Of a stretch of 64,000 nt of DNA, positions 2,906-57,916 are shown in pieces (position 1 is the first letter of the stretch; every line of letters begins with the position of its first letter). The stretch comes from a virus. The DNA lies in the IMG/VR virus record IMGVR_UViG_3300028394_000050, positions 1-64,000 of that record; one strand, given 5' to 3'. Position numbers and translations under genes: made by a program. A model generated the notes under the pieces. The model was not told the origin of the DNA, made no database searches, and was given only the letters and a program-made list of their open reading frames with translations.

Positions 2906-3649
2906 TTAGCCGATCATATCCGTAACGGGCAAGCTATAATCGTTAATGAGTGATGTTTCCATCGTTGTTATCATGTCGTTTGCTTCTTCCCAAATCTTCT
3001 GCCCATTGAATGTGATGCCACCAGGAAGCTGCATGCCTTCATACAGCTTTAGATTCTCACCCCACTGACGCTTCACAAGCGCGGTCGCGTACTGCTTTAG
3101 CCACGAATCATTCCACACGTCGGTATATGTGTTTGGGTCCAAACTTGCATATCCATCCACGATAATCGTATATCCTAGCTGCACGTCTGTAGCCCATGCC
3201 ATGTCGATATGAAGCGTATTGGTGTGACGGTTGAAACGAATAGGTTTCTTGCCAACAAAGATTTCTTCTAGTGTCTCGATATGACGCATAGCCATAACAT
3301 ATGGTGCAACCGATACACTGGTAATGTTGAATAGTTCGTTTAGATGAAGCTGATAACGGACGTTGAACATGCTAGAAGTGCTATAACTATCACCCAGATC
3401 AAAGATGCGGGTTACGCCAACGATGCTTTCTGGGAGTGTAAGATAGCGATTGGTAATGTCGGTAGACGTAACTATGTGCTTATACAGGACATGCTCGGTA
3501 CCGTCATAATGATAATCGCGATACTTTGCGATGGCATCATCAATGCGATCCTCTACCTGCTCGTCATCCACATTGATATCAATAACTGGCGCTCCGAGGC
3601 GGCGCAGGATATAGTCTTTGAATTCCTGTCTTGATGCTGGAATAGCCAT
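2906..3649 (-). CDS. 13: Neck protein gp13
   Basis: Neck/connector-complex protein binding the portal side. The start of the protein reads as in T4-like phages of marine bacteria: RQEFKDYILRRLGAPVIDIN then VDDEQVEDRIDDAIAKYRDY. Length is 247 residues. First gene of the gp13-14-15-16-17 operon. A late-promoter motif CATAAATA lies about 25-30 bases upstream and a CGGAG ribosome site precedes ATG 3649. Confidence 0.92.
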   Translation of the reverse strand: MAIPASRQEFKDYILRRLGAPVIDINVDDEQVEDRIDDAIAKYRDYHYDGTEHVLYKHIVTSTDITNRYLTLPESIVGVTRIFDLGDSYSTSSMFNVRYQLHLNELFNITSVSVAPYVMAMRHIETLEEIFVGKKPIRFNRHTNTLHIDMAWATDVQLGYTIIVDGYASLDPNTYTDVWNDSWLKQYATALVKRQWGENLKLYEGMQLPGGITFNGQKIWEEANDMITTMETSLINDYSLPVTDMIG

Positions 3650-3672
3650 TTATCACTCCGAGTTAGTTCTGC

Positions 3673-3680
3673 TATTTATG
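3673..3680 (-). promoter_or_regulatory. Late promoter motif for the gp13-17 operon
   Basis: CATAAATA on the minus strand, matching the NATAAATA form of T4-like late promoters. It is followed by a short leader with a CGGAG ribosome site before gp13. Recognition by a gp55-type sigma factor with gp33 is inferred from T4; no gp55 is visible in the window. Confidence 0.65.
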
Positions 3681-3708
3681 TTCTTGACTATTTAGTCTAT
3701 ATAGTGCT

Positions 3709-4671
3709 ATGATTCGTTTGATCGTAATGTTCTTTGTTGGCTTCATCTCGCTTGCGGCTGCGGCGAGTGAACTCAAAATAATTACTCCTTCCAATGACGA
3801 TAGCTATAATATCAACGCTCGGATTCTATCCAGGCACCTCGGCAAATATCTGCCAGACAATCCTACCATAACAATTCAATCAATGCCAGGCGCTGCGAGC
3901 TTAGTTGCAGCCAATTACATATACAATATTGCGCCGAGAGATGGTAGCGTTATCGGCATCGTCTATAAAGAGATTCCGTTTGTAGGGCTATTAGGTGGTG
4001 AAGGTGTCCAGTTTGATCCAAATCATTTCAACTGGATTGGATCAGTAGCAGACGGCCGCAAGGATGCTGTCATTCTATGGGCCAATGAACCGAAGTTTCG
4101 GTCAGACTTCGTTGTAGGTGCTGAGGGTGCCACATCAGGCAACATGGCTTTGTTTGTCAACAGAATGCTTGGCACCAATTTCAAGATTGTCGGTGGTTAT
4201 CCAACGACCGGTGCTAACCGTCTCGCGCTTGAGCGCAAGGAAGTGGATGCGGTTATCTATAGCTTAATTGGTATCAAAACGCAAAAGCCCAACTGGTTAC
4301 AGTCAGGCAGTGGCATCTATCCAACGCTCCAGTTTGGTAACGGTGCGGCCCGTCTACCAGAATATAAGGAAGTTCCAGCACTGGCTGAATATGTAACAGA
4401 TGATAAAGACAGAAAGCTCCTTCATGCTTTTGAATCCCAATTCATAATGTTGCGCCCATTCGTAGCACCACCTGGTGTACCAAAATCACGCATAGATGAA
4501 CTACGCAATGCGTTCTCAAAAACAATGGTGGATGCTGAATATGTGGAAGACGCTCGCCGTGCAAACATAGATATCAATGCAATCAGCGGCGCAGATATGG
4601 AAACCATGATAAAAACTCCAGTAGGTATAGAAACGCTCAATAGTCTCAAACAGATTTATAAGGTGAAGTGA
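3709..4671 (+). CDS. Bug/TctC-family periplasmic solute-binding protein 1
   Basis: Looks like the substrate receptor of tripartite tricarboxylate transporters (TctC/Bug family), which bind small carboxylates in the periplasm. Seen: a signal peptide (residues about 1-19, cleavage near AAAAS), then the family layout with KIITPSNDDSYNINARILSRHL, SMPGAASLVAANYIYNIAP, DGSVIGIV, FNWIGSVADG, GATSGNMALFVNRMLG and RPFVAPPGVPKSRIDELRNAF. The length of 320 is normal for Bug receptors. There are no TctA/TctB membrane genes nearby, so any transporter partner must be from the host. ATG 3709 lacks a clear ribosome site; the signal peptide supports the start. First gene of a plus-strand run with two oxygenases. 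Confidence 0.82.
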   Translation: MIRLIVMFFVGFISLAAAASELKIITPSNDDSYNINARILSRHLGKYLPDNPTITIQSMPGAASLVAANYIYNIAPRDGSVIGIVYKEIPFVGLLGGEGVQFDPNHFNWIGSVADGRKDAVILWANEPKFRSDFVVGAEGATSGNMALFVNRMLGTNFKIVGGYPTTGANRLALERKEVDAVIYSLIGIKTQKPNWLQSGSGIYPTLQFGNGAARLPEYKEVPALAEYVTDDKDRKLLHAFESQFIMLRPFVAPPGVPKSRIDELRNAFSKTMVDAEYVEDARRANIDINAISGADMETMIKTPVGIETLNSLKQIYKVK

Positions 4672-4672
4672 T

Positions 4673-5353
4673 ATGAAAGAACATGTTTTATTTCCAACAC
4701 TTCTAGCTGAATTTGAATATCCAGACAAAGACAATTTCAAGCAAGTTTTCTACGACAAGATTTTCGATTATATGTCATCAGATGGATTCTCGAATGAATA
4801 CACTGGGCATGTCAATCTTCACCACGAACCTGCATTTGAACCACTATTCAAATTTGCTATAGACTCGGTTAGACAATACGTCTCAAGATTATACATTGAT
4901 CCAAACGTATTTGAATTTAATCTAGTCAAAACTTGGATGAACATTACCAAGAACAGACAAACGCCTATGCATAGTCATGGAGACGCGCATATGTCGTTCA
5001 CATATTACATCAACATACCAAAAGATTTCTCAAAGCCAATACGCTTCTATAATTATGAGCATAGATATGAACCATTTCCTGGGTGCATCAAATTTAATAA
5101 CCCAACACACTGGGACGCATTCAACGCATACACATGGCAATTAGAACCTAAAGAAGGGCAGCTATTTGTTTTCCCTTCAAACTTACCACACGACACAGTA
5201 GGGCAATCAGAGCAGATGGAAACTGGGTGTTTTACGCCAAATGATTTAGATCAGATGCGAATATGTCTTGCTGCCGATATTCTGATGACATATAAAGAGA
5301 AAGCAGCAAAACCATTGGGTGTGCAACCCGTAAGTAACTGGAGAACCTTTTAA
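4673..5353 (+). CDS. 2-oxoglutarate/Fe(II) oxygenase (TIGR02466-like)
   Basis: Predicted double-stranded beta-helix dioxygenase using 2-oxoglutarate and Fe(II). Visible ligands: H102-G-D104 in MHSHGDAHMSFTYYINIP, a distal His at H173 (SNLPHDTVG) and a candidate 2OG-binding Arg at R196. The WMNITKN...TPMHSH context resembles the 2OG-FeII_Oxy_5/TIGR02466 group seen in many marine phages. Substrate unknown. It begins one base after the upstream receptor gene and its stop overlaps the next oxygenase start, so the three genes look co-translated. Confidence 0.78.
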   Translation: MKEHVLFPTLLAEFEYPDKDNFKQVFYDKIFDYMSSDGFSNEYTGHVNLHHEPAFEPLFKFAIDSVRQYVSRLYIDPNVFEFNLVKTWMNITKNRQTPMHSHGDAHMSFTYYINIPKDFSKPIRFYNYEHRYEPFPGCIKFNNPTHWDAFNAYTWQLEPKEGQLFVFPSNLPHDTVGQSEQMETGCFTPNDLDQMRICLAADILMTYKEKAAKPLGVQPVSNWRTF

Positions 5354-5980: not shown

Positions 5981-6427
5981 TCACTCGTTTTGTAGATACA
6001 ATTGTCCTGTTTTTCTGTTAAGGATTGCCCAATAAAATTGGTATTTATTAATCTTAGGCTTCAATTCAATTGCTTCCAGTTTATCGCGGACTTCAATTAC
6101 TTTTTGGTTGTAAGCCATCGCTAAGTTTGCATTTTGAAAATAAATTTCAACGGTTAAATTGGTATTGTCGTCTGCATATCTTCTAGTCCAACCTTCAAAA
6201 CCTTCAAATAATTCTGGTGCAATAGTTTCTCTATCTTGACGAATTAACGCATGATCGAAATTGACCTTTGAATAGCCTTCCCGACGGTCGATGCGTTGCA
6301 GCTCATCCCTAGCATCATATTCAACACCATGCGCATTTGGCGAATCTATCGGAAAATATATGTCGTTCCAATGATAATCAACCAAGCCAGTGATTATCCA
6401 TACAAGTTTTACCGGTGCGTCGGTCAT
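5981..6427 (-). CDS. Hypothetical protein, 148 aa
   Basis: Single minus-strand gene between plus-strand neighbours. No family recognised. Features seen: WIITGLVDYHWNDIYFPIDS at the N-terminus, aromatic-rich middle (FEGFEGWTRRYADD), and KINKYQFYWAILNRKTGQLY at the end. It has its own late-promoter motif (GATAAATA, 6455-6462) and a GGGAGA ribosome site before ATG 6427, so it is probably a late, separately transcribed gene. Confidence 0.6.
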   Translation of the reverse strand: MTDAPVKLVWIITGLVDYHWNDIYFPIDSPNAHGVEYDARDELQRIDRREGYSKVNFDHALIRQDRETIAPELFEGFEGWTRRYADDNTNLTVEIYFQNANLAMAYNQKVIEVRDKLEAIELKPKINKYQFYWAILNRKTGQLYLQNE

Positions 6428-6505: not shown

Positions 6506-7708
6506 ATGAATCATCTGCATTGTGGGTTTTATGTATACGACGACAAACGATTTTTTACTCGCGAAGACGCATTTGATTATGCGCTAATTCGTCAAGATTA
6601 TGATGTAAAACTTAAATACTATTACAATAATGATGTGTTTGAAAAATGCGATTGGATGGCAGAACCAGATTTCGATATTGGTCTACTATACAAAATCAGA
6701 GCCCAACAGATACGAGACAAGTACAAGTATGTGGTTCTTGCTTTCTCTGGTGGTAGCGATTCAACACAAGTTCTATGGTCATTTCTAAAAAACAATATAT
6801 TCATTGACGAAATCCAAGTTGCAAATCTTCATAAAATGACAAAAAATCTTGACCGAGCAGATATGTTGAGAGACAACGAATTTCAAATTTTGCTTGAGTA
6901 CGAACTTGCTGCTTTACCAATGCTCAAGAAAGTGTTGGAATTAAGTCCAAAAACAAAAATCACTATCGTTGATGCATCCGATCTTCTGCACGATCAGCTT
7001 TCAACAGGCAAATATACAATCATTGGAAATAATGGTAGAATCAAACATCAATACCCACGAATCTCATCATCTATGGGACCAAACAATCAATGGTGGCAAT
7101 TATTTTATACAACCAACTATGAAAGATCAAAAGACAAAAACTCTATGTGCATCGTGCGCGGTATGGAAAAACCTGCTTTGCATATCAAAAACAACTCGTT
7201 ATTTTTTCATTTTACTGACCAAACAATGGTCACAACAGCATCGCTCAATCTACGCGAATTTTCAGCAACTTATACTACAGAAGATTTTTTTTGGTCAAGA
7301 GATATGCCTTTGATTCCAATCAAGCAATCTCATATCATTAAAAGGCGACTAGAATCTGATAGAAAATACTACGAATTTTTTACTCAAAGTAGAGAAGAGC
7401 TTAAAAATCATAACTCGGTAAAACCTATTCATTCCTCAGCTATTATGCTGGAAAGAAGTTTTAGTTCGATGATATATCCAGATTGGAATCCGCAGACGTA
7501 TGCTGGACCTAAACCAACAACAAAAAACCCAGAATTTAAATTGTATGAGACTGTAGTTGGAACTCATACGACTGAAGGATTTTTGAAAGAATATAGAGAA
7601 TCAAAAGAAAAACGATTTGAAAAGATAAATAAAAAATATCAATTCTACTCAATGTTAAGATCACAACCTTACCTTATCGGAAAATTGGAGTTAAATCATG
7701 CTTCGTAA
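6506..7708 (+). CDS. PP-loop (SGGxDS) ATPase, paralogue A
   Basis: Predicted ATP-pyrophosphatase-fold enzyme of the adenine nucleotide alpha-hydrolase superfamily (asparagine synthase, QueC, GuaA types), which adenylates a substrate. The PP-loop is AFSGGSDSTQVL with S81-G-G-S-D-S86. N-terminal 70 residues (YVYDDKRFFTREDAFDYAL ... KIRAQQIRDKYKYVVLAFSG) are shared with the protein at 9843-10901, so the two are paralogues with a common accessory domain. No glutaminase domain is present. AT-rich compared with neighbours. Substrate unknown. Ribosome site AAGGAAA upstream of ATG. Confidence 0.72.
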   Translation: MNHLHCGFYVYDDKRFFTREDAFDYALIRQDYDVKLKYYYNNDVFEKCDWMAEPDFDIGLLYKIRAQQIRDKYKYVVLAFSGGSDSTQVLWSFLKNNIFIDEIQVANLHKMTKNLDRADMLRDNEFQILLEYELAALPMLKKVLELSPKTKITIVDASDLLHDQLSTGKYTIIGNNGRIKHQYPRISSSMGPNNQWWQLFYTTNYERSKDKNSMCIVRGMEKPALHIKNNSLFFHFTDQTMVTTASLNLREFSATYTTEDFFWSRDMPLIPIKQSHIIKRRLESDRKYYEFFTQSREELKNHNSVKPIHSSAIMLERSFSSMIYPDWNPQTYAGPKPTTKNPEFKLYETVVGTHTTEGFLKEYRESKEKRFEKINKKYQFYSMLRSQPYLIGKLELNHAS

Positions 7709-8624
7709 ACTACTATTGATTTGCTTTTCTCTCGCAGCATTTGGCGCATGTGGCGAAGAGCGCATAAACGTATACACAAGATTTCCTGCTAACGACCCAA
7801 CAGCTTTTGTTACAGCGACACTCATTACCGAGTTGAACAAAAAGCTTGATGAAAAATATGATTTTAGATTAGGTACTATTCCAGGTTCTGGTGGCGAAGC
7901 GGCTGATGGTAAAGCATTAGCCGAAGCTAAATTAGGCGCAAACACTATTGTAGCCGGTACAATTTCCAATTTCACACTCAATCCAATCATATACAATTCT
8001 ACAATTGATCGTGAGGCTGATTTTGTTCCGATTGAACTTATTGCTTTGGTACCAAACGCTATAATGGTTTCTCCTGATTTGAAGGTAGATTCATTAGACC
8101 AATTCGTTAAGTATATGAAGGGAAAGAAGGAAGTGTTTAATGGTGCCACGGTTCAAGCTGTTTCACCAAAGCTTCTCGACGCAATCTTTCGTAAACAGTA
8201 CGATATTAACAACGTCAAAATGATTCAGTACAAAACACCTGGAGAAATAACCAAGAGCATTCTTATGGGTGAAGCAGACTACTCGGTTCAAAATCCTATC
8301 GACACGCCTGGTCTAAAATTGTTGGCTATCTCATTGCCCAATAGGAATTCTCAATACCCAAACGTGCCAACTGGGCTTGAATTAGGCATCAAAGATTTTA
8401 ACTATGCGTCTTCATTGCTTCTATACGCACCCAAAGCCAATGTTAAATTTATTGACGAGATTAAAAAATCAGTACATGAAGCTTGCGCGTCAGATGCCGT
8501 TCGCGATGTTATTGCCAAATTAAAATTGGTATTTGAGTGTAATAACAACGAACAGTTTCTTCGAACCGAAATTGCAAGACAAAAACAATTGGTCAAGAAA
8601 TACGAAGATTCAATCAAACAATGA
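7698..8624 (+). CDS. Bug/TctC-like solute-binding protein 2, probable lipoprotein
   Basis: A second receptor of the Bug/TctC type. The N-terminus (MLRKLLLICFSLAAFGACGEE) looks like a lipoprotein signal with the lipid-bearing Cys at residue 18. The body has family-like segments: FRLGTIPGSGGEAADGKALAEA, NAIMVSPDLKVDSLDQFVKYMKG, GEITKSILMGEADYSV, YPNVPTGLELG. It is clearly diverged from the protein at 3709-4671, so this is not a recent duplication. ATG 7698 has GGAG 8 bases upstream and overlaps the end of the PP-loop gene. Its 3' end overlaps the convergent gene at 8610 by 15 bases. Confidence 0.68.
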   Translation: MLRKLLLICFSLAAFGACGEERINVYTRFPANDPTAFVTATLITELNKKLDEKYDFRLGTIPGSGGEAADGKALAEAKLGANTIVAGTISNFTLNPIIYNSTIDREADFVPIELIALVPNAIMVSPDLKVDSLDQFVKYMKGKKEVFNGATVQAVSPKLLDAIFRKQYDINNVKMIQYKTPGEITKSILMGEADYSVQNPIDTPGLKLLAISLPNRNSQYPNVPTGLELGIKDFNYASSLLLYAPKANVKFIDEIKKSVHEACASDAVRDVIAKLKLVFECNNNEQFLRTEIARQKQLVKKYEDSIKQ

Positions 8625-9410
8625 TAAAAACTGCTCTTTGGTGCCAAAATTGTGATTAGGGTCTGGCGTGTGTAGTCTATGCTGTCTAATACGGACAAAT
8701 GCTAGATCATACGCCGACCCATAATCATATGAAAATTTTGGTCTCCATGGTATATTATAGATGCGCGATTTGAAATCTTGAACTGTCTCATCTGCAATTT
8801 CTTTTACCATAGCGCAACATAGCTCTGGCGTATATGTGAAGAAATAGTGCGTGTTATCGTTATGAATTAAAACGTCATTATAGAAGTCCCATTCATTAGC
8901 ACCAACATACATTTTACCATCATTGTCGTCAATGATATGTTCGCTCATAATCATAATGCCGCCGTGGTCTTCTGCGTATCGCCCCACAATAAGCGCTGGT
9001 GCAGAGTTGTGTCCATACCCACTTAGTTTTTTAAAAATATCATCAACGAATATCGTAAGCAATTCGGTAGGCGTTTTGTCAATTACAATAGGTTCAATAC
9101 CATATTGTTTGCATACACGAAAAGCATAAGCAGATTCGTATTTGTTTATTGGCGTACTAACTATGACAGGTATTACATTATGTCCACGGTCAATCATACG
9201 TCTGAACACGAACTCGGAATCCATACCACCGCTGAATCCGATAAACACCTTCGATGATTTAGTGGCTATTATGTCAGCCGTATAATTGGCTGCATCGTCA
9301 AAACTCATTACCTTATATGGTTTAGTCTCTAGGTGTACCACAAAATCGGTTGAGTTATTGAGCAATCTTTCTGATAGATTACTTCGGAGCCAATTGTTTT
9401 CCGTTGCCAT
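8610..9410 (-). CDS. PP-loop (SGGxDS) ATPase, type B
   Basis: Contains VFIGFSGGMDSEFVFRRMIDRG with the PP-loop S60-G-G-M-D-S65, followed by the alternating sheet pattern of the alpha-hydrolase superfamily (VIPVIVSTPINKYESAYAFR, EPIVIDKTP). Its N-terminal part differs from the other two PP-loop proteins in the island. ATG 9410 has AAAGGA 6 bases upstream and overlaps the upstream hydroxylase-like gene by 32 bases. Likely an adenylating enzyme; substrate unknown. Confidence 0.7.
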   Translation of the reverse strand: MATENNWLRSNLSERLLNNSTDFVVHLETKPYKVMSFDDAANYTADIIATKSSKVFIGFSGGMDSEFVFRRMIDRGHNVIPVIVSTPINKYESAYAFRVCKQYGIEPIVIDKTPTELLTIFVDDIFKKLSGYGHNSAPALIVGRYAEDHGGIMIMSEHIIDDNDGKMYVGANEWDFYNDVLIHNDNTHYFFTYTPELCCAMVKEIADETVQDFKSRIYNIPWRPKFSYDYGSAYDLAFVRIRQHRLHTPDPNHNFGTKEQFLSLFD

Positions 9411-9846
9411 CTAGTCCTTTCCATGTACCAAAAACTAAGTCCCAAATAGGCACGAATACGCCATAATTCTTTGTCGCGTATTCGTGATGAATTAGATGCC
9501 ATTTGCCACTGGTCAAGAATGGATAGAGATTGATGCGTTTATTATGTTCGACGGCCTCCTGAATAAAACCAGCCCAGATGTAGTACGCAATGAGCAACCA
9601 CCAATGCCCAGTGATTAAAGATATTATAATCGTTGGGATCACTTCTGTCAACCACTGATCTATGGTGCTATCCCAGGTATCAAAAAAGAGAAACGCATTC
9701 TTCCAGTTTAACCCTTGAATTGTCTGGTCGGTTACCTGCGCGTGATGATCCATATGGAATTTACGCACAACAGGAATCACATGGGCCGCACGATGCGCCC
9801 AATAGACAACGAAAGTCCACAGAAGAAAGACAAGAACGTAGCTCAT
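9379..9846 (-). CDS. Membrane fatty-acid hydroxylase / sterol desaturase family protein
   Basis: Integral membrane di-iron oxygenase family. The histidine clusters are visible: HRAAH, then KFHMDHHAQ, EHNKR, and KWHLIHHEYATKNYG near the C-terminus, with hydrophobic helices before and between them. Start chosen at ATG 9846 because it overlaps the preceding stop (ATGA); a longer TTG start at 9876 is possible but unlikely. The 155 residues are short but keep the His core. It lies in one coupled transcription unit with two PP-loop genes. Substrate (lipid, acyl chain or other) is unknown. Confidence 0.8.
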   Translation of the reverse strand: MSYVLVFLLWTFVVYWAHRAAHVIPVVRKFHMDHHAQVTDQTIQGLNWKNAFLFFDTWDSTIDQWLTEVIPTIIISLITGHWWLLIAYYIWAGFIQEAVEHNKRINLYPFLTSGKWHLIHHEYATKNYGVFVPIWDLVFGTWKGLDGNGKQLAPK

Positions 9847-10901
9847 GTTAGATAGTATGGTTGTGACCAGAAGCAATACTTTTTGTAAATATGACTAAAC
9901 GATGATAGGTTTTTCATGCCTTCTAAGAACATCCGATACATCTCGCTATTTTGGCTCTTTAGCATGAACATATCTCTGGCACTGAGTGTATTATACATCG
10001 ACTTGGTTGATTCAAATTTCATCGGTGCTCTGAGATTGTATATAATCTCATTTATGCGTTTTGTTTTATTCCAATAAGCAAGCTCTCGATTGAGTAATGG
10101 ATGGGCATTCTTTTCTTGCTCTTCGTACATCTTGTAAAAAATGTCGTCCAATTTCATAACAACATGCCCTTGTTTTACCATAAGCTTGATAACCACATCA
10201 TCGGTACCATTGTAGAAATTGATTCGTGTGAAATTTTCGTCTTGGTAATTTGCACCATAATCATTTACCGACAGATCGTTAAAGCGTATAGCTTTTTCTT
10301 CAAATTCATAACCTGGTTTATCAGAACCCATGATATAGCATGTGTTCTTGTTATTGTTTTTACCAACAAATTTTTTGAGGTCGTACCAAAATAGATTGTG
10401 AACGCTTTTAAATCCACCGATATGATTTGTCCACTCGTTACCATACTTTTTGATAAGTGTGAAATTATTTGGATCATTAAAATGGTCAGTGTAATCTGCT
10501 ATAGTGATTTTGGTATTAGGCAAATTCATGCTTCTGAGAGTTGGAAAAGCATTGTGGTATATATCACCGTTATGATTTTCATCGGTGCCATACCTAGAAT
10601 CTTGTGAGAATGCTCCAACAAGCAATATCTCATCTATGTGGATATTGTTGTAGTAGAACGATTCCAAAATGTTTGTCGAATCGTACCCACCAGAATAGCA
10701 AAGGATCACATACTCATATTGGTCACGAATTTGTTGTGCGCGTTCGCGATATATCTGTTCAAGCGTTTCAGTAGGTTCTGTTTTCCAATCGACCTTACTG
10801 AAAACATCGTCGTGGTAATAGAAATGACAAAATTTGGCTGACTTGATTGCGTCAGTCTGTGTACGATAGACGTTCTTTTTATCGTCATAATAAAACATCA
10901 T
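9843..10901 (-). CDS. PP-loop (SGGxDS) ATPase, paralogue A'
   Basis: PP-loop VILCYSGGYDSTNILESFYY with S70-G-G-Y-D-S75. It shares with the 6506-7708 protein an N-terminal YYDDKK..., DDVFSKVDWKTEPTETLEQI, then YRERAQQIRDQYEYVIL, and a similar spacing to the C-terminal region. First gene of a three-gene minus-strand unit with the His-cluster hydroxylase and the type-B PP-loop gene. Function inferred as ATP-dependent adenylation; substrate not known. Confidence 0.72.
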   Translation of the reverse strand: MMFYYDDKKNVYRTQTDAIKSAKFCHFYYHDDVFSKVDWKTEPTETLEQIYRERAQQIRDQYEYVILCYSGGYDSTNILESFYYNNIHIDEILLVGAFSQDSRYGTDENHNGDIYHNAFPTLRSMNLPNTKITIADYTDHFNDPNNFTLIKKYGNEWTNHIGGFKSVHNLFWYDLKKFVGKNNNKNTCYIMGSDKPGYEFEEKAIRFNDLSVNDYGANYQDENFTRINFYNGTDDVVIKLMVKQGHVVMKLDDIFYKMYEEQEKNAHPLLNRELAYWNKTKRINEIIYNLRAPMKFESTKSMYNTLSARDMFMLKSQNSEMYRMFLEGMKNLSSFSHIYKKYCFWSQPYYLT

Positions 10902-10916
10902 CAGACGTACACACCT

Positions 10917-11354
10917 TTACTTTGAGTTAGATGATTTGTTGGTAAAGTTGTCCTTCGATAGAGACTCGATAAGGTTCTTGATATCATCATCCGATAGTAC
11001 GTCAGCCTTCTTAGCAAGAAGTTCTGTAGTACTTTTAGTTACTGGCTTATTAATCATATCAATAATACCGCTCATTGATGTATCAATATCAGGATTCAAT
11101 ACATCTTCCATCTTACGAAGAAATGAGATAGGAGAATTATATAGAATTAAACTCTCTAGCTCTTTACCTTCTAATGCAGGAATAGGCATATCAATCGCAA
11201 CGTCTGTACGGCAGCGCATAGGCGAACCATCTTCACGACGATTGTAATCGTTCGCTGAAATCAACATTTCTTCGTTCAGATTGTCAGTGTAATACCTAAC
11301 GACGAACAAATGGTCATTAGGCCATACTTCAATGATTTTGTAATGAATGTTCAT
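10917..11354 (-). CDS. Conserved phage protein downstream of tail-fibre genes
   Basis: 145 residues. The N-terminal half (YKIIEVWPNDHLFVVRYYTD, ISANDYNRREDGSPMRCRTD, VAIDMPIPALEGKELESLIL) resembles small proteins found after tail-fibre genes in other T4-like marine phages; the C-terminal half is helical and charged. The start overlaps the adhesin stop (ATGA). A role in fibre assembly or attachment is inferred from position only. Confidence 0.55.
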   Translation of the reverse strand: MNIHYKIIEVWPNDHLFVVRYYTDNLNEEMLISANDYNRREDGSPMRCRTDVAIDMPIPALEGKELESLILYNSPISFLRKMEDVLNPDIDTSMSGIIDMINKPVTKSTTELLAKKADVLSDDDIKNLIESLSKDNFTNKSSNSK

Positions 11355-12625
11355 CCTACTGGTCCGTTTCTTGTTCCTGTGTTAATCCAACTTGTCACAT
11401 ACGCATTACCAAGTACCGCGCTTCCCTGCGCGCCCGCTGACCCCGCTGCACCTGCCGGTCCCGTTGCGCCCGTGGGTCCCGTTGCGCCCGCCGCCCCGGT
11501 TGGTCCGGTAGCGCCGTTATTGCCTGCTGGGCGACTAGTTCCTGCTGCACCCGCACTACCTCCAGCGCCACCCGATCCATTATTTGATGATGCGAAGGTC
11601 CCGCCGCCGACCCCCGCCCCACCGCTTAAACCCAATCCTCCACCCGCGCCGCCCCATGCCCCGCCCGCGCCACCAGCGTTTGCAGTTCCCGTGCCACCGG
11701 CACCTCCTGAATTATAACCAGGATAAGAGCCGGTAGGACCACCAGTTCCACCGATAGACCCTGCACCGCCACCACCACCACCGCCTGCGGTGGGTGCGTC
11801 TGCTTTTCCTCCTGGTGCGGCACGACTACCACCACCACCGCCACCGCCGCCAGTTCCACCTGCACCACCAGTTGCTGCTGGTCCCCCCGCACCTCCTGGT
11901 CCACCAACTCCACCAGGTCCACCAACACCACCGGGTCCGCCTGGACCTCCCGGTCCCCCTGGTCCCAATGTTCCGCCGGTGCCACCAGTAAATGTGGTTG
12001 TATTTTCGATAACACTTATTAGTCCTGCGACCGAATCAATTTGAAATGCAATACCGCCTGTGCCGCCGTTATTGCCGGCACCACCAGGACCACCAGCATT
12101 ACCTGTTCCGCCCGCATTACCAGTAACACCTGTGCCGCCCGCTGCGCCATTATTAGGTACACCAGCTGCGTTACCGGCAGGTGCAGGAGACCCACCACCA
12201 CCAGACACGCCTGAGTTAATACCGCTATAAGGTGCGCCCTGCCCGCCGTTACCGCCAACGCCGTTTGATCCAACATTTCCTGCTGCACCTGCGTTACCTG
12301 CTGCGCCCGGCGCTCCCGTTGCGCCCGTGTTGCCTGGTGTTCCTATGTTGCCTGAAGTACCTGTATTTCCCGGTGTGCCCGCAGTTCCTGTACCACCTGT
12401 GACAATAGCAGCATTTTTAACATAAAGGAATGTACCAGCTTTCCAACCTGTTCCTGTTTTGAATGCAGGAGTTGAAGGAGAAGTTGACCCAATGTTACTA
12501 TTGATAAAGCATAGCAAGTTCAGCGGGTACGCAGGCGCACTCGATGAATTATATAGATCCACGTTGTTCGTAGAGCTATTGAAATTAACAACCTTAGTTG
12601 GTCTTGCCATTAGAAATGTGAACAT
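11351..12625 (-). CDS. Glycine-rich tail adhesin / receptor-binding fibre protein
   Basis: 424 residues, with a non-repetitive first ~75 residues and then a Gly-rich repeat region to about residue 410. Two kinds of repeat are seen: poly-Gly stretches (GGTGGTLGPGGPGGPGGP, GGAGGTGGGGGGGG), and collagen-like Gly-X-Y triplets near the end (GATGPTGAAGATGPTG). Such Gly-rich sheets fit the polyglycine-II sandwich of T-even gp38-type adhesins, which bind the host receptor at the fibre tip; that comparison is by composition, not alignment. ATG 12625 is 2 bases after the previous stop; ATG 12610 (MARPTKVVNF) is an equally plausible start. Confidence 0.65.
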   Translation of the reverse strand: MFTFLMARPTKVVNFNSSTNNVDLYNSSSAPAYPLNLLCFINSNIGSTSPSTPAFKTGTGWKAGTFLYVKNAAIVTGGTGTAGTPGNTGTSGNIGTPGNTGATGAPGAAGNAGAAGNVGSNGVGGNGGQGAPYSGINSGVSGGGGSPAPAGNAAGVPNNGAAGGTGVTGNAGGTGNAGGPGGAGNNGGTGGIAFQIDSVAGLISVIENTTTFTGGTGGTLGPGGPGGPGGPGGVGGPGGVGGPGGAGGPAATGGAGGTGGGGGGGGSRAAPGGKADAPTAGGGGGGGAGSIGGTGGPTGSYPGYNSGGAGGTGTANAGGAGGAWGGAGGGLGLSGGAGVGGGTFASSNNGSGGAGGSAGAAGTSRPAGNNGATGPTGAAGATGPTGATGPAGAAGSAGAQGSAVLGNAYVTSWINTGTRNGPVG

Positions 12626-46465: not shown

Positions 46466-46895
46466 GAGTAGTGCCGTCCTCTTCTTCCTTTGTCAAATCA
46501 AATGGGCCATGAAATACGACTTCTCTATCGGTAGCTTCCCAACCGTCGTTCTCAAGACCTTCGTGCCACTCTTCATCAAACAACTCTTGGATACGCTCTT
46601 GCTCTTCTTCGTCCATGTCATCAGGAAAAGTCCACGAACACGCGACGCCATCATCAAAGCTATGATCCATCAAATCATAGTCAAGCGAATAGATATCAAT
46701 ACCATTATCATCATCAAGGTCAATATCCTCAACGGCTTTGAGATAATCCTTGAAATCTACATCGTCAGGAACATCGAACTTGGCATAACCCCAACGCCAC
46801 CAAGTCTCGTATTCAATAACTTGCCCATCTTTATTGAAGTATTCAGTTTCCTGAATGTTCTTCTTATAGCGAGTTTCCAGCTTCCAAATTGCCAT
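46458..46895 (-). CDS. Acidic conserved phage protein, 145 aa
   Basis: Resembles a small protein common in T4-like phages: MAIWKLETRYKKNIQETEYF, TWWRWGYAKFDVPDDVDF, CSWTFPDDMDEEEQERIQEL, DGWEATDREVVFHGPFDLTK. Very acidic. Function unknown. ATG 46895 lies 32 bases inside the end of kdsA, and a consensus sigma-70-type promoter (46942-46970) inside kdsA drives it, so it can be expressed early independently of kdsA. Confidence 0.7.
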   Translation of the reverse strand: MAIWKLETRYKKNIQETEYFNKDGQVIEYETWWRWGYAKFDVPDDVDFKDYLKAVEDIDLDDDNGIDIYSLDYDLMDHSFDDGVACSWTFPDDMDEEEQERIQELFDEEWHEGLENDGWEATDREVVFHGPFDLTKEEEDGTTHG

Positions 46896-47724
46896 TGTCT
46901 AACCTTTCACTTCTTTTCACTACATCGTCAATCTCAAGTAAACTATACAACAATGCGTCGAACTTGTCAAGATAAATCATGTTCGGACCATCGCACGGTG
47001 CATTATTTGGATTCTCGTGGACTTCCATAAACAAGCCAGCAATACCTACAGCCGTGGCTGCGCGAGCGATGAGTGGTACAAACTCACTCTGCCCACCAGA
47101 GCTTGATCCATTACCACCTGGTAGCTGTACAGCATGGGTGCAATCCATGAAGACTGGGTAACCCCAATACTTCATAATCTCAAGCGAGCGCATATCGACC
47201 ACAAGGTTCTTATAGCCAAATGTAGTACCACGCTCAGTCAATATGATTTTCTTACAGCCAAAATGCTCAAGCTTCTTTACTACGCTACCCATTTCTTCGG
47301 GCGCCATAAACTGGCCCTTCTTCACATTGACTGGCTTATGCGTTTGTGCAGCCGATTCAAGAAGGTCAGTTTGCCGACAAAGAAATGCGGGGATCTGAAT
47401 AACATCAGCATTCACTGCACCACAATGCCAGTTTTCGTGTACGTCCGTGAGGACTTCAATGCCCCTACCACGGACGGCATCCATCCCATAATAAGCTTCA
47501 TCAAACCCCATACCTCTATAAGCAGTTGCGGATGTTCGATTAGCCTTATCGAAGGACGTCTTATAAATGAAATTGATTTCTTGCCCGAAGCGTTTGCCAA
47601 CGCTTTCTACGATATCATGCAGCGACTCTGCCATAAAGATGGCATGTTTCTGTGACTCGAAAGCACAAGGACCAGCAATGATGCTAAGTGGTTTTGAGTT
47701 GCCACATTTATCGTAGAATGCCAT
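46864..47724 (-). CDS. kdsA: 3-deoxy-D-manno-octulosonate-8-phosphate synthase (KdsA)
   Basis: Condenses phosphoenolpyruvate and arabinose-5-phosphate to KDO-8-phosphate, the precursor of lipid-A-linked KDO. Family motifs in order: IIAGPCAFES (C20), YKTSFDKANRTS, GIEVLTDVHE, VIQIPAFLCRQTDLL, PVNVKKGQFMAPEEM, ERGTTFGYKNLVVDMRSL, CTHAVQLPGG, SGGQSEFVPLIARAA, GLFMEVHENPNNAPCDGPN. Cys in AGPC (Asn in E. coli) suggests the metal-dependent class. At 286 residues it is full length. A cytosolic host-like enzyme placed in a phage operon; no kdsB/kdsC is in the window. The stop region overlaps the next gene. Confidence 0.93.
   Translation of the reverse strand: MAFYDKCGNSKPLSIIAGPCAFESQKHAIFMAESLHDIVESVGKRFGQEINFIYKTSFDKANRTSATAYRGMGFDEAYYGMDAVRGRGIEVLTDVHENWHCGAVNADVIQIPAFLCRQTDLLESAAQTHKPVNVKKGQFMAPEEMGSVVKKLEHFGCKKIILTERGTTFGYKNLVVDMRSLEIMKYWGYPVFMDCTHAVQLPGGNGSSSGGQSEFVPLIARAATAVGIAGLFMEVHENPNNAPCDGPNMIYLDKFDALLYSLLEIDDVVKRSERLDNGNLEAGNSL
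46942..46970 (-). promoter_or_regulatory. Sigma-70-type promoter inside kdsA for the downstream unit
   Basis: Minus strand TTGACA (46970-46965), 17-base spacer, TATAGT (46947-46942). Start of transcription expected near 46935, about 40 bases before ATG 46895. It would serve the 145-aa gene, cupin-DUF1289, gp33, the nucleotidyltransferase-fold gene and gp59. Confidence 0.68.
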
Positions 47725-48868: not shown

Positions 48869-49093
48869 TCAAGCCTCGTTTAGAAGCTCAGCCGAACCGC
48901 GAACCTGCTCACCGATAGTGCCAGGTGCATTGACGAAGCCCATAAGAACTTCGGCCTTCTTGATAACATCATTGACTGTGGGATATTTTGCTGTGGCGTC
49001 ACGCTTCATTTCCTGACCTAGAAGATATTCTTGGTCGCACATAGTCTGTGCCATCTGAAGAACATTGAAGCGGAGCATCTTATCGTCGTTCAT
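48869..49093 (-). CDS. Small hypothetical protein, 74 aa
   Basis: Start chosen at ATG 49093 (MNDDKMLRFNVLQMAQTM) because GAGGTGA lies 6 bases upstream; a longer frame to 49156 would enter the 3' part of the tmRNA locus. Helical with YPTVNDVIKKAEVLMGFV. Resembles small helical phage proteins with no known function. Confidence 0.62.
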   Translation of the reverse strand: MNDDKMLRFNVLQMAQTMCDQEYLLGQEMKRDATAKYPTVNDVIKKAEVLMGFVNAPGTIGEQVRGSAELLNEA

Positions 49094-49120
49094 AATTTTC
49101 ACCTCTCTAATAGTGTTAGT

Positions 49121-49443
49121 GGGGGGATTCTGTTTCCACGTTCCCCCCGAACGCATTCTTAGGCTGCTAGAGCATAAGAGATAGGTGCATTATCGTTAGC
49201 ATCTAAAACGCGCCTCGGTCTACTCGTACCTTTACTACTATCTGTCGAACCTATATCGCCCCCATCAAAGATACACTAATCTACACAACAAGCTGGAGCA
49301 TTTATCTCTTCATGCTTTAGAACTTGTTTGGCGGTAGAACTCTTATAAAGGATCGTCTTTATTAGTGTATCCATGGTGGAGGCGTCGGGTACTGCCCCCG
49401 AGTCCAAATGGTTTATTCCGAACGTCTCAACAACCTTAGCGTA
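49121..49443 (-). ncRNA. ssrA: Circularly permuted two-piece tmRNA (ssrA), tag ANDNAPISYALAA
   Basis: Rescues stalled ribosomes. Order on the minus strand is acceptor piece, intervening segment, coding piece, the alphaproteobacterial permuted type. Acceptor piece: T-arm TCGGG-GGCAGTA-CCCGA and CGCCTCC-A-CCA (ends 49374). Intervening segment 49373-49264 is closed by an 11-bp stem (GATACACTAAT/ATTAGTGTATC). Coding piece begins GGGGGCG at 49263, which pairs with CGCCTCC over 7 bp including the G3-U alanine determinant. Tag codons 49200-49159 give ANDNAPISYALAA then TAA. A potential helix between the tag 3' region and the start of the acceptor piece (CTAAGGTTGTTG) holds the two pieces. The 3' end is uncertain; a G6/C6 hairpin lies at 49121-49148. 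Confidence 0.9.
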
Positions 49444-49578
49444 TTATTTATAATACATGGAAAGAGGGTGTTTGTCAAGCAGATAATTTCTGGCTGATGC
49501 TTCTGACCAATTGTTGATGCAGATATATCGTGGGCAATCCCAGTAGATAAAAACCCACGAGCTATAATGCTCACCCAT
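49444..49578 (-). CDS. Small hypothetical protein, 44 aa
   Basis: A 44-codon frame starting at ATG 49578 with AGGA 7 bases upstream, overlapping the stop of the preceding gene. Trp/Tyr-rich (MGEHYSSWVFIYWDCPRYIC). The tmRNA promoter lies in its last codons. Plausible from coupling, but short. Confidence 0.42.
   Translation of the reverse strand: MGEHYSSWVFIYWDCPRYICINNWSEASARNYLLDKHPLSMYYK
49445..49478 (-). promoter_or_regulatory. Composite early/late promoter of the tmRNA
   Basis: Minus strand: TTGACA (49478-49473), 17-base spacer, TATTAT (49455-49450), overlapping TATAAATA (49452-49445). It has both the sigma-70-type and the late pattern, as at gp32. Expected start near 49443. Confidence 0.78.
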
Positions 49579-53883: not shown

Positions 53884-55941
53884 TTACTTGCTGTTGGTAC
53901 GGAATACGCCATCCCAATCCTTAGGTAGGGGATTCTTTTTATAGTCCTCCACGCGCTCTTTCATCATTCCATAATATTCTCTTAGTTCATCATTGAATGC
54001 TGGTTCAAGCACATGGAAATAATTTTCCAATTGGTGCCATTCCTGTGCGCGATAGTATTTGATGAAGTCTGCGTGTGTGCGAGCATACGCTTTGTTGATA
54101 CCAATCTTTTCAACGATGGTGTATATCTTCACACCTTCGCTCTTACCTTTCACAGCAAGGCAATCAAGTTCCACGCATAGATATTCATCCTTCACATATT
54201 CATAAGTCTTAGGACCAATTACCATCTTCACATGATATGGCTTGCTCTGCCCTTCCAAGCGCGATGCTAGATTGACAGTATCACCGAGGCAAGTATAATC
54301 AAAGCGTTGACTACTACCCATATTGCCAACCACAACGGAGCCTGTGTTAATCCCAAGACCCATACCAAAGGGTGGAACACCCTCAGTGGCGATCTCTTTG
54401 TTAAATCGTTCCAAATCATCTAGCATCTCCAATGCTGTTTTAACTGCGTGTTTCGCATGGTCCGCATCATCAAGTGGTGCATTCCAAAATGCCATCTGCG
54501 CGTCACCGATATACTTATCTAGTGTGCCATCGTTCTGAATTATCTTAGCCGTCATCGCTGTCATGTAGCGATTCATTATTTTCGTAAGGCCCTGTACGTC
54601 ATTACCGTAATGTTCAGAGATAGTCGTAAAGCCCCTAACGTCAGTAAACATGATAGATAGCTCACGGGTCTCTCCTCCCAAGCACAATAGTTCTGGGTTC
54701 TTCTGTAGTTTCTCGACCAGTGCAGGTGAAAGGTAAGTACCGAACTGCTTTTTAATTTGTTGCTTTAGTCTAAACTCGCGAGCGAAATTGTTGAATACCA
54801 AGTGCCCATATACAACAGTTATAGACAATACGATATAGCTTGCGTCCCATAGTTGTAGCTCTGTTTTGAATAAATAATAACTCGCTGCTGATAATCCAAC
54901 CACAATGAAAGCGTAGAATGGAACTGTCATCACTACCGTCAGTCTTGGAACTATATGGAGCAATAGTAGTAGCATGGTGGTTAGTAGTGCTCCTTCTATT
55001 AGCCTTCCTACGTTGGGGCGAGAAATAGAAGTTCCGTCTACCAGTGTTTGGAGTGTCTGCGCTTGAATCTCATGGGCCCACTTCTCACCGATTGGTGTTG
55101 CTATGATACCACCAACGCCTTCAATCGTTAGACCAAGAATAACAATCTTGTCCTTCACGCGAGCGTCTATCTCGGTTGCTTCTAGCGTATCAAATTTGGT
55201 ATTCCAAGATAACCAGATGCGCCCGCGCTCGTCGGTTGAGATTGGTGGAAAAGCTGGGACTCTTACAGCTTCTATTCCACCTTCGTTCGTCTTAACTTGA
55301 AAGCTAGGGTCTCCAGCAGCGACACGAATGGTCTCCAAAGGAATGCTAGGATAAAGACCAGATGCAATATTGACAAGTAGAGGCATACGGCGAACCACAC
55401 CGTCCAATTCAGAGATTGTTGCGACCACACCAACGCCTGAGGCAACTTCGGCATACTTGTCAAGAGGGCGTAATCCACCAGGCCAACGATAGACAACCCT
55501 AGCAGGATCAACAGGACCGATAGCAGCGAACCCACGACGAACCGAGTCGGGCTTACTGTTTTGAGTAGTAGGTGTTTGTGCGAGGACAACACCTTCAAGA
55601 GTTTTTGCCAGTTCATCATCGCCACCTGCTCTGTCTTTTTCAGAGAATAGAATAGGCGCAACGATTACCGAAGCGCCGTTCTCTTTTAGTTTATTGATTG
55701 TCTTTGCGATATCTCGTCTGTCAAATGGCCACTGACCAAACTTCTCAACCGACTTCTCACCAAAGTTAACAATTACAATCTCTTCTGATTGTTTCTTCTC
55801 CAGAGAAGTGATAAGATAATCAAAGGTCTTTAGCTGAAGCGTTTGAATCGCGCTTGGGTTGATTGCATACAATGTCAACAGGAGACAGGCGCTGATAGCA
55901 ACCATCCATGTGCTTGTAAGAAACTTGACTAGCTTTTCCAT
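53884..55941 (-). CDS. CHASE2-domain class III adenylate cyclase
   Basis: Membrane sensor making cyclic AMP. Layout: TM1 (11-28), extracytoplasmic CHASE2 sensor domain (about 35-310, e.g. FDRRDIAKTINKLKENGASV), three TM helices (316-386), then a cyclase domain (about 425-640). Catalytic residues are all present: metal-binding D434 (MFTDVRGFTT) and D480, adenine-selecting K476 (LDKYIGD) and D554, transition-state N557 and R561 (GDTVNLASR). Lys/Asp selectivity points to ATP. Full length (685). ATG overlaps the stop of the curlin-like gene (TGATG), so it belongs to the curli operon. Confidence 0.92.
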   Translation of the reverse strand: MEKLVKFLTSTWMVAISACLLLTLYAINPSAIQTLQLKTFDYLITSLEKKQSEEIVIVNFGEKSVEKFGQWPFDRRDIAKTINKLKENGASVIVAPILFSEKDRAGGDDELAKTLEGVVLAQTPTTQNSKPDSVRRGFAAIGPVDPARVVYRWPGGLRPLDKYAEVASGVGVVATISELDGVVRRMPLLVNIASGLYPSIPLETIRVAAGDPSFQVKTNEGGIEAVRVPAFPPISTDERGRIWLSWNTKFDTLEATEIDARVKDKIVILGLTIEGVGGIIATPIGEKWAHEIQAQTLQTLVDGTSISRPNVGRLIEGALLTTMLLLLLHIVPRLTVVMTVPFYAFIVVGLSAASYYLFKTELQLWDASYIVLSITVVYGHLVFNNFAREFRLKQQIKKQFGTYLSPALVEKLQKNPELLCLGGETRELSIMFTDVRGFTTISEHYGNDVQGLTKIMNRYMTAMTAKIIQNDGTLDKYIGDAQMAFWNAPLDDADHAKHAVKTALEMLDDLERFNKEIATEGVPPFGMGLGINTGSVVVGNMGSSQRFDYTCLGDTVNLASRLEGQSKPYHVKMVIGPKTYEYVKDEYLCVELDCLAVKGKSEGVKIYTIVEKIGINKAYARTHADFIKYYRAQEWHQLENYFHVLEPAFNDELREYYGMMKERVEDYKKNPLPKDWDGVFRTNSK

Positions 55942-56204
55942 CAGTATTGGCTAACGATATAAGGACTATTGGGACAATTGAGACCACAAGTAACACTAAG
56001 ACTAAAAGACTGAGGCGTGTTTCCAGATTGAGATACAATAGCCGAGATATTATTGCCAGTGAAATTAAGGGTAGCACTATGATTAGCACCAGACTGAGTA
56101 ATACTAACATTCTGTAAGGATCCTATGATGTTCACGGTTGCATTATTTACTGTCTGCGATAGCGCAGGCGTTGTCATTAGAAGGAGCGCGATTAATGTTT
56201 TCAT
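55941..56204 (-). CDS. Secreted curlin-like protein 2, 87 aa
   Basis: Signal peptide (MKTLIALLLMTTPALSQ) and then curlin-type repeats with regularly spaced Gln/Asn/Gly: VNIIGSLQNVSITQSGANHS, ATLNFTGNNISAIVSQSGNT. Two cysteines near the end (CGLNC). Likely a minor amyloid subunit or nucleator secreted through the CsgG pore. Start overlaps the FecR stop (TGATG). Confidence 0.7.
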   Translation of the reverse strand: MKTLIALLLMTTPALSQTVNNATVNIIGSLQNVSITQSGANHSATLNFTGNNISAIVSQSGNTPQSFSLSVTCGLNCPNSPYIVSQY

Positions 56205-57313
56205 CAGTTGCCCTGCTTTATAGTTATCGTTGTGGTTCCAGAACTGTTTACCATCTGCGTCACTGAACCACCATCCTGAGTCAAATTCAATGTCATGTTA
56301 TGCGTAGTTGCTACAGTCAATTCCATATATGAGTTGTATGTTTCACGGTAGAGTGTCACATTATCCTGCTCAACAAAATACTTTAGGCCTGTCGATGCGT
56401 TATATTTAGGTAGTAATGCATTGAACTCTGCAAGCTCATTCGTTAGCATCTGCGAGTTCGATAAGTCTAGAAAGTTTAGTAGAAAATCACTGTCAAGAAA
56501 GTTGCGATCTAGTTTGTTGTACTCTGTTAGGTAGTTCTTTTCAAGTTCGCTGTATTTGAGAAAATCAATACCAAGTAAGTCTGCGTCTAATACGTTTGCG
56601 ATACGCTCAACTGGTTGCTCGCGCACGACAGGTTTTGCTGGTGCTACGATAAGCATATTATTTATCTGATCCAGATTCAAATTCAAAATGCTGGATTTTG
56701 GTGTACTCATACTGGTCTGCACATTGACGGTCTCAAATGGCTTAGTCAACCAGATAGTGCCCATATCCGTCGTTACTGAAATGGAACCAACCACACAGTC
56801 GCGTTCAATATTTCGCCAACCAGTAGGGCAAGAAGGAAGCAAAATAATAGTAGAACGACCAATCTCATCGACGGTACCTGAGAAATCAGTTCCGCGGACA
56901 CCGATTGTTGCTGTTGGTGTTTCCACCATGACTTGTTGCGGATCTGATTTAGCAATTTGCCCGGATGCATATTTGATAGTGCCGAGCGCCATTTTGATGC
57001 CAAGCTTGCCAGTTTTCTTTTCACCGTCGTAAACAAAATTGTCAATGACAAGGCGGCTGTGCTCCGTTATCTGGACTTTGGTATCATCTTGGAATGTGAT
57101 ACCAGTTTTCCCGTTCGCAGTCGTTATGGTATCTTTCATCTCAACGCCACTGGATAGTGCGCTGGAAATCAAGTTAGCATCACGCTTTATTTCTGCTGGG
57201 CCTGTTTGCTCTGTGACCTTACCAACTTCAGACTTAGTTGTGGTTGGACTTAATAAGCAGAGTATTGCCAGAACCAGTGATTGTAGAAATGACCTTAGAA
57301 TCAACACCGCCAC
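56204..57313 (-). CDS. FecR-domain secreted protein
   Basis: After an N-terminal hydrophobic signal (LILRSFLQSLVLAILCLLS) comes a FecR domain at about 30-150: GKVTEQTGPAEIKRDANLIS, SGVEMKDTITTANGKTGITF, TKVQITEHSRLVIDNFVYDG, MALGTIKYASGQIAK, VMVETPTATIGVRGTDFSGT. The rest is Leu/Asn/Asp-rich and beta-rich at the end (TLNLTQDGGSVTQMVNSSGT). GTG 57313 start lies about 80 bases inside the curlin-1 gene, so the signal peptide is encoded in overlap. FecR-type proteins are often found near CHASE2 cyclases, fitting a sensory pair. Confidence 0.82.
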   Translation of the reverse strand: MAVLILRSFLQSLVLAILCLLSPTTTKSEVGKVTEQTGPAEIKRDANLISSALSSGVEMKDTITTANGKTGITFQDDTKVQITEHSRLVIDNFVYDGEKKTGKLGIKMALGTIKYASGQIAKSDPQQVMVETPTATIGVRGTDFSGTVDEIGRSTIILLPSCPTGWRNIERDCVVGSISVTTDMGTIWLTKPFETVNVQTSMSTPKSSILNLNLDQINNMLIVAPAKPVVREQPVERIANVLDADLLGIDFLKYSELEKNYLTEYNKLDRNFLDSDFLLNFLDLSNSQMLTNELAEFNALLPKYNASTGLKYFVEQDNVTLYRETYNSYMELTVATTHNMTLNLTQDGGSVTQMVNSSGTTTITIKQGN

Positions 57314-57911
57314 CTTGCTTTATATCTACAGTGTTTGTTGCACCTAAGATATTCACATCGGCTTCATGTCCATTCGTAGATGCTACGCCTGTCTGAATGA
57401 TGTTGACACTATTGCCACCACCACCGTCAATTAGAACCGTACTCTTCGCACCCGCGACTGCGCTGGAATCATTCTCTATGTTTACGGTGTTGTTGTCTGT
57501 GTTTACCGTCACGTTTGATATCGTGAACCCCTCGGCCTTCTGCGTGATCGTATTGTTATCGCCTGTGATGGTGTTGTTTAATGTTGAACCAGTGCATGTG
57601 CCACTGACACCGCATTGCATGTTGATGGTGTTATTATCACCAGTAACAAGTGAAGACGCGGTTACGCCATCACCTTGAACATTGATGCTCATTAGGTTGG
57701 TGTTACCAATCTGGTCAATCGTGACAGTGTTATTCTGCCCGTTGAATATTGCTTTGTCGGCAGTATTTCCAATCACGTTCGAGTTGCCAGTCTGAGTCAT
57801 AGAAATTGTAGAACCACTACCGATTTGGTCTACATACACACTATTGCTCGCGGCGTTTGCATATTGAAGCATAACCAAGAATGACAAAAATGCCAGTCTT
57901 GTACGTTTCAT
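57234..57911 (-). CDS. Curlin-like amyloid subunit 1 (CsgA/CsgB type), 225 aa
   Basis: Signal peptide (MKRTRLAFLSFLVMLQYANA) followed by about seven curlin-type repeats: SVYVDQIGSGSTISMTQTGN, NTVTIDQIGNTNLMSINVQG, NTITGDNNTITQKAEGFTIS, NSVNIIQTGVAS, NTVDIKQGGGVDSK. The pattern (N/S)xVxIxQxG is that of curli major/minor subunits that form cross-beta fibres. A Cys pair occurs at CGVSGTC. Encoded 5 bases after csgG with AAGAGGT as ribosome site. Confidence 0.85.
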   Translation of the reverse strand: MKRTRLAFLSFLVMLQYANAASNSVYVDQIGSGSTISMTQTGNSNVIGNTADKAIFNGQNNTVTIDQIGNTNLMSINVQGDGVTASSLVTGDNNTINMQCGVSGTCTGSTLNNTITGDNNTITQKAEGFTISNVTVNTDNNTVNIENDSSAVAGAKSTVLIDGGGGNSVNIIQTGVASTNGHEADVNILGATNTVDIKQGGGVDSKVISTITGSGNTLLIKSNHN

Positions 57912-57916
57912 TTTGT

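Follow-up and report, generated by a model that had tools for sequence, protein, structure and literature searches.

What use would a phage have for exported solute receptors that are encoded without the membrane genes of a transporter? The question is raised by a stretch of 64,000 nucleotides (the window), positions 1 to 64,000 of IMG/VR record IMGVR_UViG_3300028394_000050, a 106,948-bp T4-like virus contig that is metagenomic and possibly a fragment. The window contains an island with two receptor genes, P1 and P2, laid out as follows:

2906..3649, minus strand: T4-like neck protein (head-tail adaptor Ad2) that borders the island on the left
3650..3708, no strand: divergent intergenic region between the neck gene and P1, the position of a late promoter in many homologues
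3709..4671, plus strand: P1, 320 aa, ATG start, exported solute receptor of Bug/TctC fold, predicted signal peptide at about residues 1-19
4673..5353, plus strand: OG1, 2OG-Fe(II) oxygenase (PF13759), after a 1-bp gap from P1
5353..5973, plus strand: OG2, 2OG-Fe(II) oxygenase (PF13640), its start overlapping the OG1 stop
5981..6427, minus strand: small conserved protein of 148 aa inside the island
6506..7708, plus strand: PP400, PP-loop (SGGSDS) ATPase-like protein of 400 aa, with an 11-bp overlap with P2
7698..8624, plus strand: P2, 308 aa, ATG start, second exported Bug/TctC protein, with two invariant mature cysteines
8610..9410, minus strand: PP266, second PP-loop type, weakly similar to LarE/NadE/MnmA and conserved in the island
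9379..9876, minus strand: fatty-acid-hydroxylase-type (FAH) membrane di-iron enzyme (PF04116), also conserved in the island
9843..10901, minus strand: PP352, PP400-related PP-loop protein, likewise conserved in the island but with no link to a Bug gene

Two diverged receptors in a phage island

Both receptor genes are confirmed as open at these coordinates, P1 at full length, and comparison with close homologues gave dN/dS values of 0.06-0.08 for P1 and 0.04 for P2; both are real genes, and P1 is under strong purifying selection. A search of the PDB with the P1 model (pLDDT 74) gave TctC/Bug proteins as all of matches 1-16, and the P2 model (pLDDT 91) gave them as all of matches 1-17, with TM up to 0.82, so that the predicted structures settle the two-domain Bug/TctC fold of both. 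These matches and our signal-peptide heuristic bear out the preliminary description of P1 as a full-length Bug/TctC protein with a signal peptide, and fold, tree and synteny together back its being phage-encoded. The profile search that had been named as a possible refutation gave a split result: P2 scores 51.8 bits against Pfam TctC (PF03401, cut-off 27 bits), but the window P1 falls below the cut-off with 14.7 bits, the modelled fold being TctC for both; the best member of the P1 family reaches E=3.7e-8. Because the PFxAGGxxD loop motif is missing from P1 and P2, we class them by fold and tree as a diverged Bug/TctC branch and not as proven canonical receptors of the tripartite tricarboxylate transporter (TTT) kind. 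With TTT receptors such as BugD, MatC, AdpC, TphC and Bug27 they share the fold, Sec export, length, the conserved PGAxS/G core and the GY element; having no TctAB next to the receptor gene is also frequent among these receptors, as the Bordetella orphans show. They differ in being phage-encoded, in the loss of the AGGxxD loop, in being coupled to genes of PP-loop proteins or 2OG-Fe(II) oxygenases, and in the invariant cysteine pair of the P2 family.

This pair comprises the only two cysteines of mature P2, and its invariance suggests a disulfide. P2 had been announced as a second, diverged member of the family in the same island, which its Pfam score and PDB matches support, and as a probable lipoprotein, which we reject: a lipobox is absent from P2 and from all 16 homologues examined, and the cysteine of the signal peptide is not conserved.

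Relatives of P1 are present in 28 IMG/VR loci (33-100% identity), where the gene proved, as the preliminary description had proposed to check, conserved and syntenic in related phages. The order in most P1 loci is the neck gene, P1-OG1-OG2, Bug/PP-loop pairs, and PP266-FAH-PP352. The island is shortened or rearranged in L025-L027; L031 has the neck gene and P1, and its contig stops shortly after; L028-L030 and L032 are podovirus-like contigs without the neck-P1-OG1 synteny. The closest published setting is that of the hypervariable regions of pelagimyophages and Melnitz, T4-like aquatic phages that also have curli genes, a tmRNA and a variable island (PMC7029224, PMC9004378). However, none of 50,697 phage records searched, Mosig and Melnitz included, matches P1 or P2, nor did any phage isolate in the collection searched match P1, P2 or PP400. 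As in the published pelagimyophages (PMC7029224, PMC9004378), curli-like genes are found here: a minus-strand run at 53884-59151 of the window comprises CHASE2/adenylate-cyclase-like, FecR-like, CsgA-like repeat, CsgG-like and CsgF-like ORFs (named from their translations), and relatives of the CsgG-, CsgA- and CsgF-like ORFs lie near Bug genes in seven fetched loci each.

Relatives of the neck protein belong to T4-like phages of Stenotrophomonas, Sinorhizobium, Caulobacter, Pelagibacter and Methylophilales, and a permuted tmRNA at 49068-49466 of the window, with a tRNA-Gln nearby, is of alphaproteobacterial type (RF01849, 108 bits), which together make an alphaproteobacterial host likely. BLAST with the tmRNA was set aside as a guide to the host, the match being limited to a short conserved segment.

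The phylogeny with cellular Bug proteins that had been suggested earlier was built from 139 sequences. P1 and the Bugs of podovirus-like phages group with alphaproteobacterial Bugs (100*), and P2 lies in a separate phage clade, with long phage-only branches. The starred branches force at least two acquisitions by phages, each acquired lineage being partnered by a different PP-loop family; finer placements are unsure because this is a quick tree with several long branches. The nearest cellular relatives of P1 that we found are all alphaproteobacterial, at 33-41% identity, and no PP-loop homologue was found at their loci. PP400 had no match in 249 Pseudomonadota genomes, the phage controls being positive (4/4). 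By context, cellular relatives and tree, P1 is a host-derived gene carried among viral genes, as expected of an auxiliary metabolic gene.

Coupling of receptors to PP-loop and oxygenase genes

The main feature, which the preliminary description does not mention, is that P1 is coupled to genes of 2OG-Fe(II) oxygenases and P2 to a PP-loop gene. The single base pair that separates P1 from OG1 is replaced in several homologues by a 4-bp ATGA overlap, and P1 adjoins OG1 in T4-like loci with a complete region, the exceptions being the divergent L025-L027 and L031. For the PP-loop genes, a scan anchored on them gives fairer figures than counts that include loci entered through Bug queries, although all are counts of related sequences and not of independent events: a Bug ORF lies within 250 bp of close PP400 homologues in 31 of 34 cases (30 on the same strand) and within 3 kb of distant homologues in 59 of 106, and QueC-like PP-loops, a second PP-loop family, have a Bug neighbour within 250 bp in 15 of 20. 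Counted from the receptor side, with the same dependence among sequences and some loci entered through Bug queries, 66 of 111 distinct phage Bug ORFs are within 300 bp of a PP-loop ORF. The PP-loop gene is upstream in 47 of the 57 same-strand pairs, mostly overlapping, with gaps concentrated at overlaps and at -4. The second Bug lineage, that of podovirus-like phages, is partnered by a different PP-loop family, and in L010:8536-12331 and L113 we observed tandem duplicated cassettes of two PP-loop genes and two P1-like Bugs on alternating opposite strands.

A function search gave partial, weak hits for the PP-loop proteins of the window, and for the PPq family the hits were QueC-like and confined to the N-terminal part; assignment of a known activity to the PP-loop enzyme was set aside, the profile matches being weak and partial. 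PADLOC returned generic hits alone and no informative match to a defence system.

According to a signal-peptide heuristic devised for this analysis (not SignalP), the N-terminus resembles a signal peptide in 108 of 111 distinct phage Bugs, including P1 and P2, but in 1 of 175 PP-loop proteins; the signal peptides of the three Bugs without a call look interrupted. From this contrast, the receptor and its coupled PP-loop enzyme are predicted to lie on opposite sides of the inner membrane. DctP-like proteins (PF03480, the TRAP receptor family) also occur near PP-loop/Bug genes (L067:8195-9154, L072:7282-8268, L108:1530-2486 and others), and none of the 17 in these neighbourhoods has a predicted signal peptide, which is odd for a family of periplasmic receptors.

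Ligand loop and transporter genes

In TTT receptors the near-universal PFxAGGxxD loop of domain 1 holds the ligand carboxylate through a water molecule, with some natural exceptions (PMC5812351). Its aspartate (AGGxxD) is present in 27 of 28 and 30 of 30 of the bacterial Bugs sampled; among phage Bugs it is present in 0 of 14 P1 proteins, 0 of 14 podovirus-like proteins and 6 of 53 P2-type proteins. The corresponding sequences are PSNDDSYN in P1 and FPANDPTA in P2, neither of which fits the motif. The P1 ligand site has been remodelled and has not decayed, because the loop is itself conserved within the P1 family as PSxxDSYxINAR; loops of P2-type proteins are highly variable. Such remodelling would imply a ligand, or a binding mode, that differs from those of classical TTT receptors, and with the canonical loop lost in both proteins, classical di- or tricarboxylate transport by P1 or P2 is not a safe assumption. 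The absence of the loop from P1, podovirus-like and most P2-type Bugs means that P1 and P2 could be receptors that no longer work in the ordinary way. NAD is the product of some PP-loop enzymes. Bug27 and Bug69 bind quinolinate (PMC11452294), and we considered that the cassette might be linked to the capture of an NAD precursor.

As the preliminary description had stated, P1 and P2 come without transporter membrane genes in their own, possibly incomplete, record, where neither TctA nor TctB was detected. TctA was found in 2 of the 66 related phage records searched, one contig of 343 kb and one of 158 kb, both with phage genes, so that most related phages would rely on the TctAB of the host. 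The 343-kb contig has porin, TctA, Bug and PP-loop genes consecutively, and a 72-kb contig with a TctA 74% identical shows the same order. A TctB-TctA pair is present in six contigs, namely the 158-kb contig, whose Bug genes are about 15 kb or more from the pair, and five more. In the first contig of each of these two arrangements, genes typical of phages, among them those for a neck protein, a clamp loader, PhoH or ThyX, are found as well. The Bug beside a phage TctA keeps the AGGxxD loop, as SSPAGGIID, or SSPPGGLID in L264. Since phages carry these membrane parts, a transport role appears credible for at least part of the phage Bug family. The earlier idea that the receptors capture carboxylates for a host TctAB therefore stands in part: it is plausible in that related phages have TctA beside Bug and PP-loop genes, but the carboxylate loop is lost in P1 and P2.

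Among observations on these contigs, a phage-encoded Gram-negative porin (PF13609) lies immediately upstream of TctA in L229:6433-7617, with a homologue at the same place in L264, and a tryptophan halogenase (PF04820) lies upstream of TctB and TctA in a large-phage contig (L226:7100-11063). TctA matches in the phage collection were discarded, as they look like bacterial DNA: the records are short or lack annotation, or, in one case, come from Salmonella with a length of 691 kb. The nearest finding in the literature searched, a tctA domain hit in SUP05 viral contigs, had already hinted at a TTT component in viruses; unlike here, it is a domain hit on contigs called viral by non-reference methods, and the passage reporting it describes neither a receptor nor a PP-loop partner (PMC4164917).

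Possible late expression and roles of the cassettes

A T4-type late promoter, CCTATAAATA, is present on the plus strand upstream of P1 in many homologues. Among 12 sampled P1 upstream regions, which are related sequences, 9 have TATAAATA with at most one mismatch, and none of 300 shuffles was as good overall. The copy in the window itself (3650..3708) is degenerate, with three mismatches to TATAAATA, and is not a clear late promoter; exact copies of TATAAATA stand 6-69 bp upstream of five minus-strand ORFs of the window. Cassettes of podovirus-like phages sit between tail-fibre-type and lysis-type genes, as read from translations. From these patterns, we infer that the cassettes may be expressed late.

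Our preferred reading, to which we give a probability of roughly 0.45, is that P1 and P2 are the exported periplasmic halves of two-part, late-expressed cassettes that capture and process a compound by means of a host or phage TctAB. In the periplasm, late in infection, the receptor would bind a specific small polar metabolite, to be handed to a TctAB-type permease that would be encoded by the host here and by the phage itself in some large phages; the coupled enzyme would then modify the metabolite in the cytoplasm, to the benefit of the phage. The enzyme halves, predicted to be cytosolic, would be the two 2OG-Fe(II) oxygenases for P1 and the PP-loop ATPase for P2. This reading draws on computed evidence: fold, signal peptides, synteny, gene overlaps, purifying selection, the recurrence of Bug and PP-loop genes in unrelated phages, and TctA/TctB in some relatives. 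Against it count the rarity of TctA in the related records searched, which would leave most of the phages dependent on a putative host TctAB, the loss of the carboxylate loop, and the lack of a clear late promoter before P1 in the window. In bacterial neighbourhoods such as arylmalonate decarboxylase clusters, or Bug69/27 with NAD genes, a receptor gene similarly stands beside that of an enzyme whose presumed substrate is the acid taken up (PMC5812351, PMC11452294); the phage cassettes differ in their enzymes, in their genomes, in the late-type promoters of related phages and in forming multiple shuffled cassettes.

A serious rival, akin to the decoy or signal suggested in the preliminary description, although we consider it rather unlikely, is that P1 and P2 feed no transporter and act by interference or signalling in the periplasm, binding a ligand, the host permease or a sensor kinase, so that uptake is blocked, a signal is quenched or superinfecting phages are excluded. 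Loss and diversification of the loop would then reflect new binding partners, as the new P1 motif and the highly variable P2-type loops might indicate; the lack of TctA in most related records, the variable island of shuffled copies by structural genes and the late-type promoter fit as well, and BctC provides a precedent of a TctC protein able to signal through a two-component system (PMC5812351). However, interference leaves unexplained both the tight coupling to PP-loop and 2OG enzymes and the phages with TctA or TctBA, and the PADLOC result gives it no defence system beyond generic hits. In another reading, the cassette would be biosynthetic and not directed to import, the enzyme making or modifying a compound that exits and the Bug protein binding this product, which it might protect or retain. 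An island rich in enzymes (2OG oxygenases, the fatty-acid-hydroxylase type and PP-loops in the window), the halogenase in a large phage, many tandem PP-loop genes and a phage-specific loop suggestive of an unusual ligand all agree with this, but no exporter was identified, TctA is an import-type permease, and the porin-TctA-Bug-PP-loop order looks import-like; we regard it as improbable.

Simple nutrient uptake, by an ordinary TTT receptor for citrate-like acids that came from a host and has unrelated enzymes next door, is in our view quite improbable. Orphan Bug receptors are indeed common in beta- and some alphaproteobacteria (PMC5812351, PMC5994714), and the nearest cellular relatives of P1 and the phage tmRNA are alphaproteobacterial; against it stand the low identity to cellular proteins (just 33-41%), the long phage-only branches, the lost ligand loop and the Bug gene that almost always accompanies close PP400 homologues. 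That P1 is host contamination or a decaying passenger gene might be suspected of a metagenomic, possibly fragmentary contig, and can be given hardly any weight: a T4-like neck gene flanks it, the synteny is kept in many independent contigs, and conserved synteny and a dN/dS of 0.06-0.08 in a full-length gene rule it out.

Beyond the preferred reading of P1 and P2 as the capturing halves of such cassettes, we tentatively propose a more general system, for which we would give less than even odds: interchangeable cassettes of an exported receptor and a cytosolic PP-loop/2OG enzyme, assembled independently in several phage lineages, late and with diversified ligand loops, that would intercept and chemically process specific small molecules and include, in some large phages, a complete phage-encoded TTT transporter. 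The recurrence of the PP-loop/Bug pairing in very different phages, some of them with a membrane transporter, suggests a little-known route by which infecting phages take up or intercept small molecules. Metabolic genes of phages are known, but in the open-access full texts we found no description of phage TctC receptors, of their pairing with PP-loop genes or dedicated enzymes, or of the TctA/TctB carried by some relatives, which is not proof of absence. If the proposal is true, phages would control traffic across the inner membrane of the host late in infection, and the repeated independent pairing would make the substrate of an anonymous PP-loop family guessable from the ligand of its receptor, and vice versa.

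Two further ORFs of the window deserve mention. A glycine-rich, collagen-like repeat ORF (11351-12625) adjoins the island and, with the two 2OG oxygenases, raises the idea of hydroxylated tail-fibre repeats. The ORF at 46864-47724 reads, from its translation, like a KDO-8-phosphate synthase, a sugar-acid enzyme of lipopolysaccharide.
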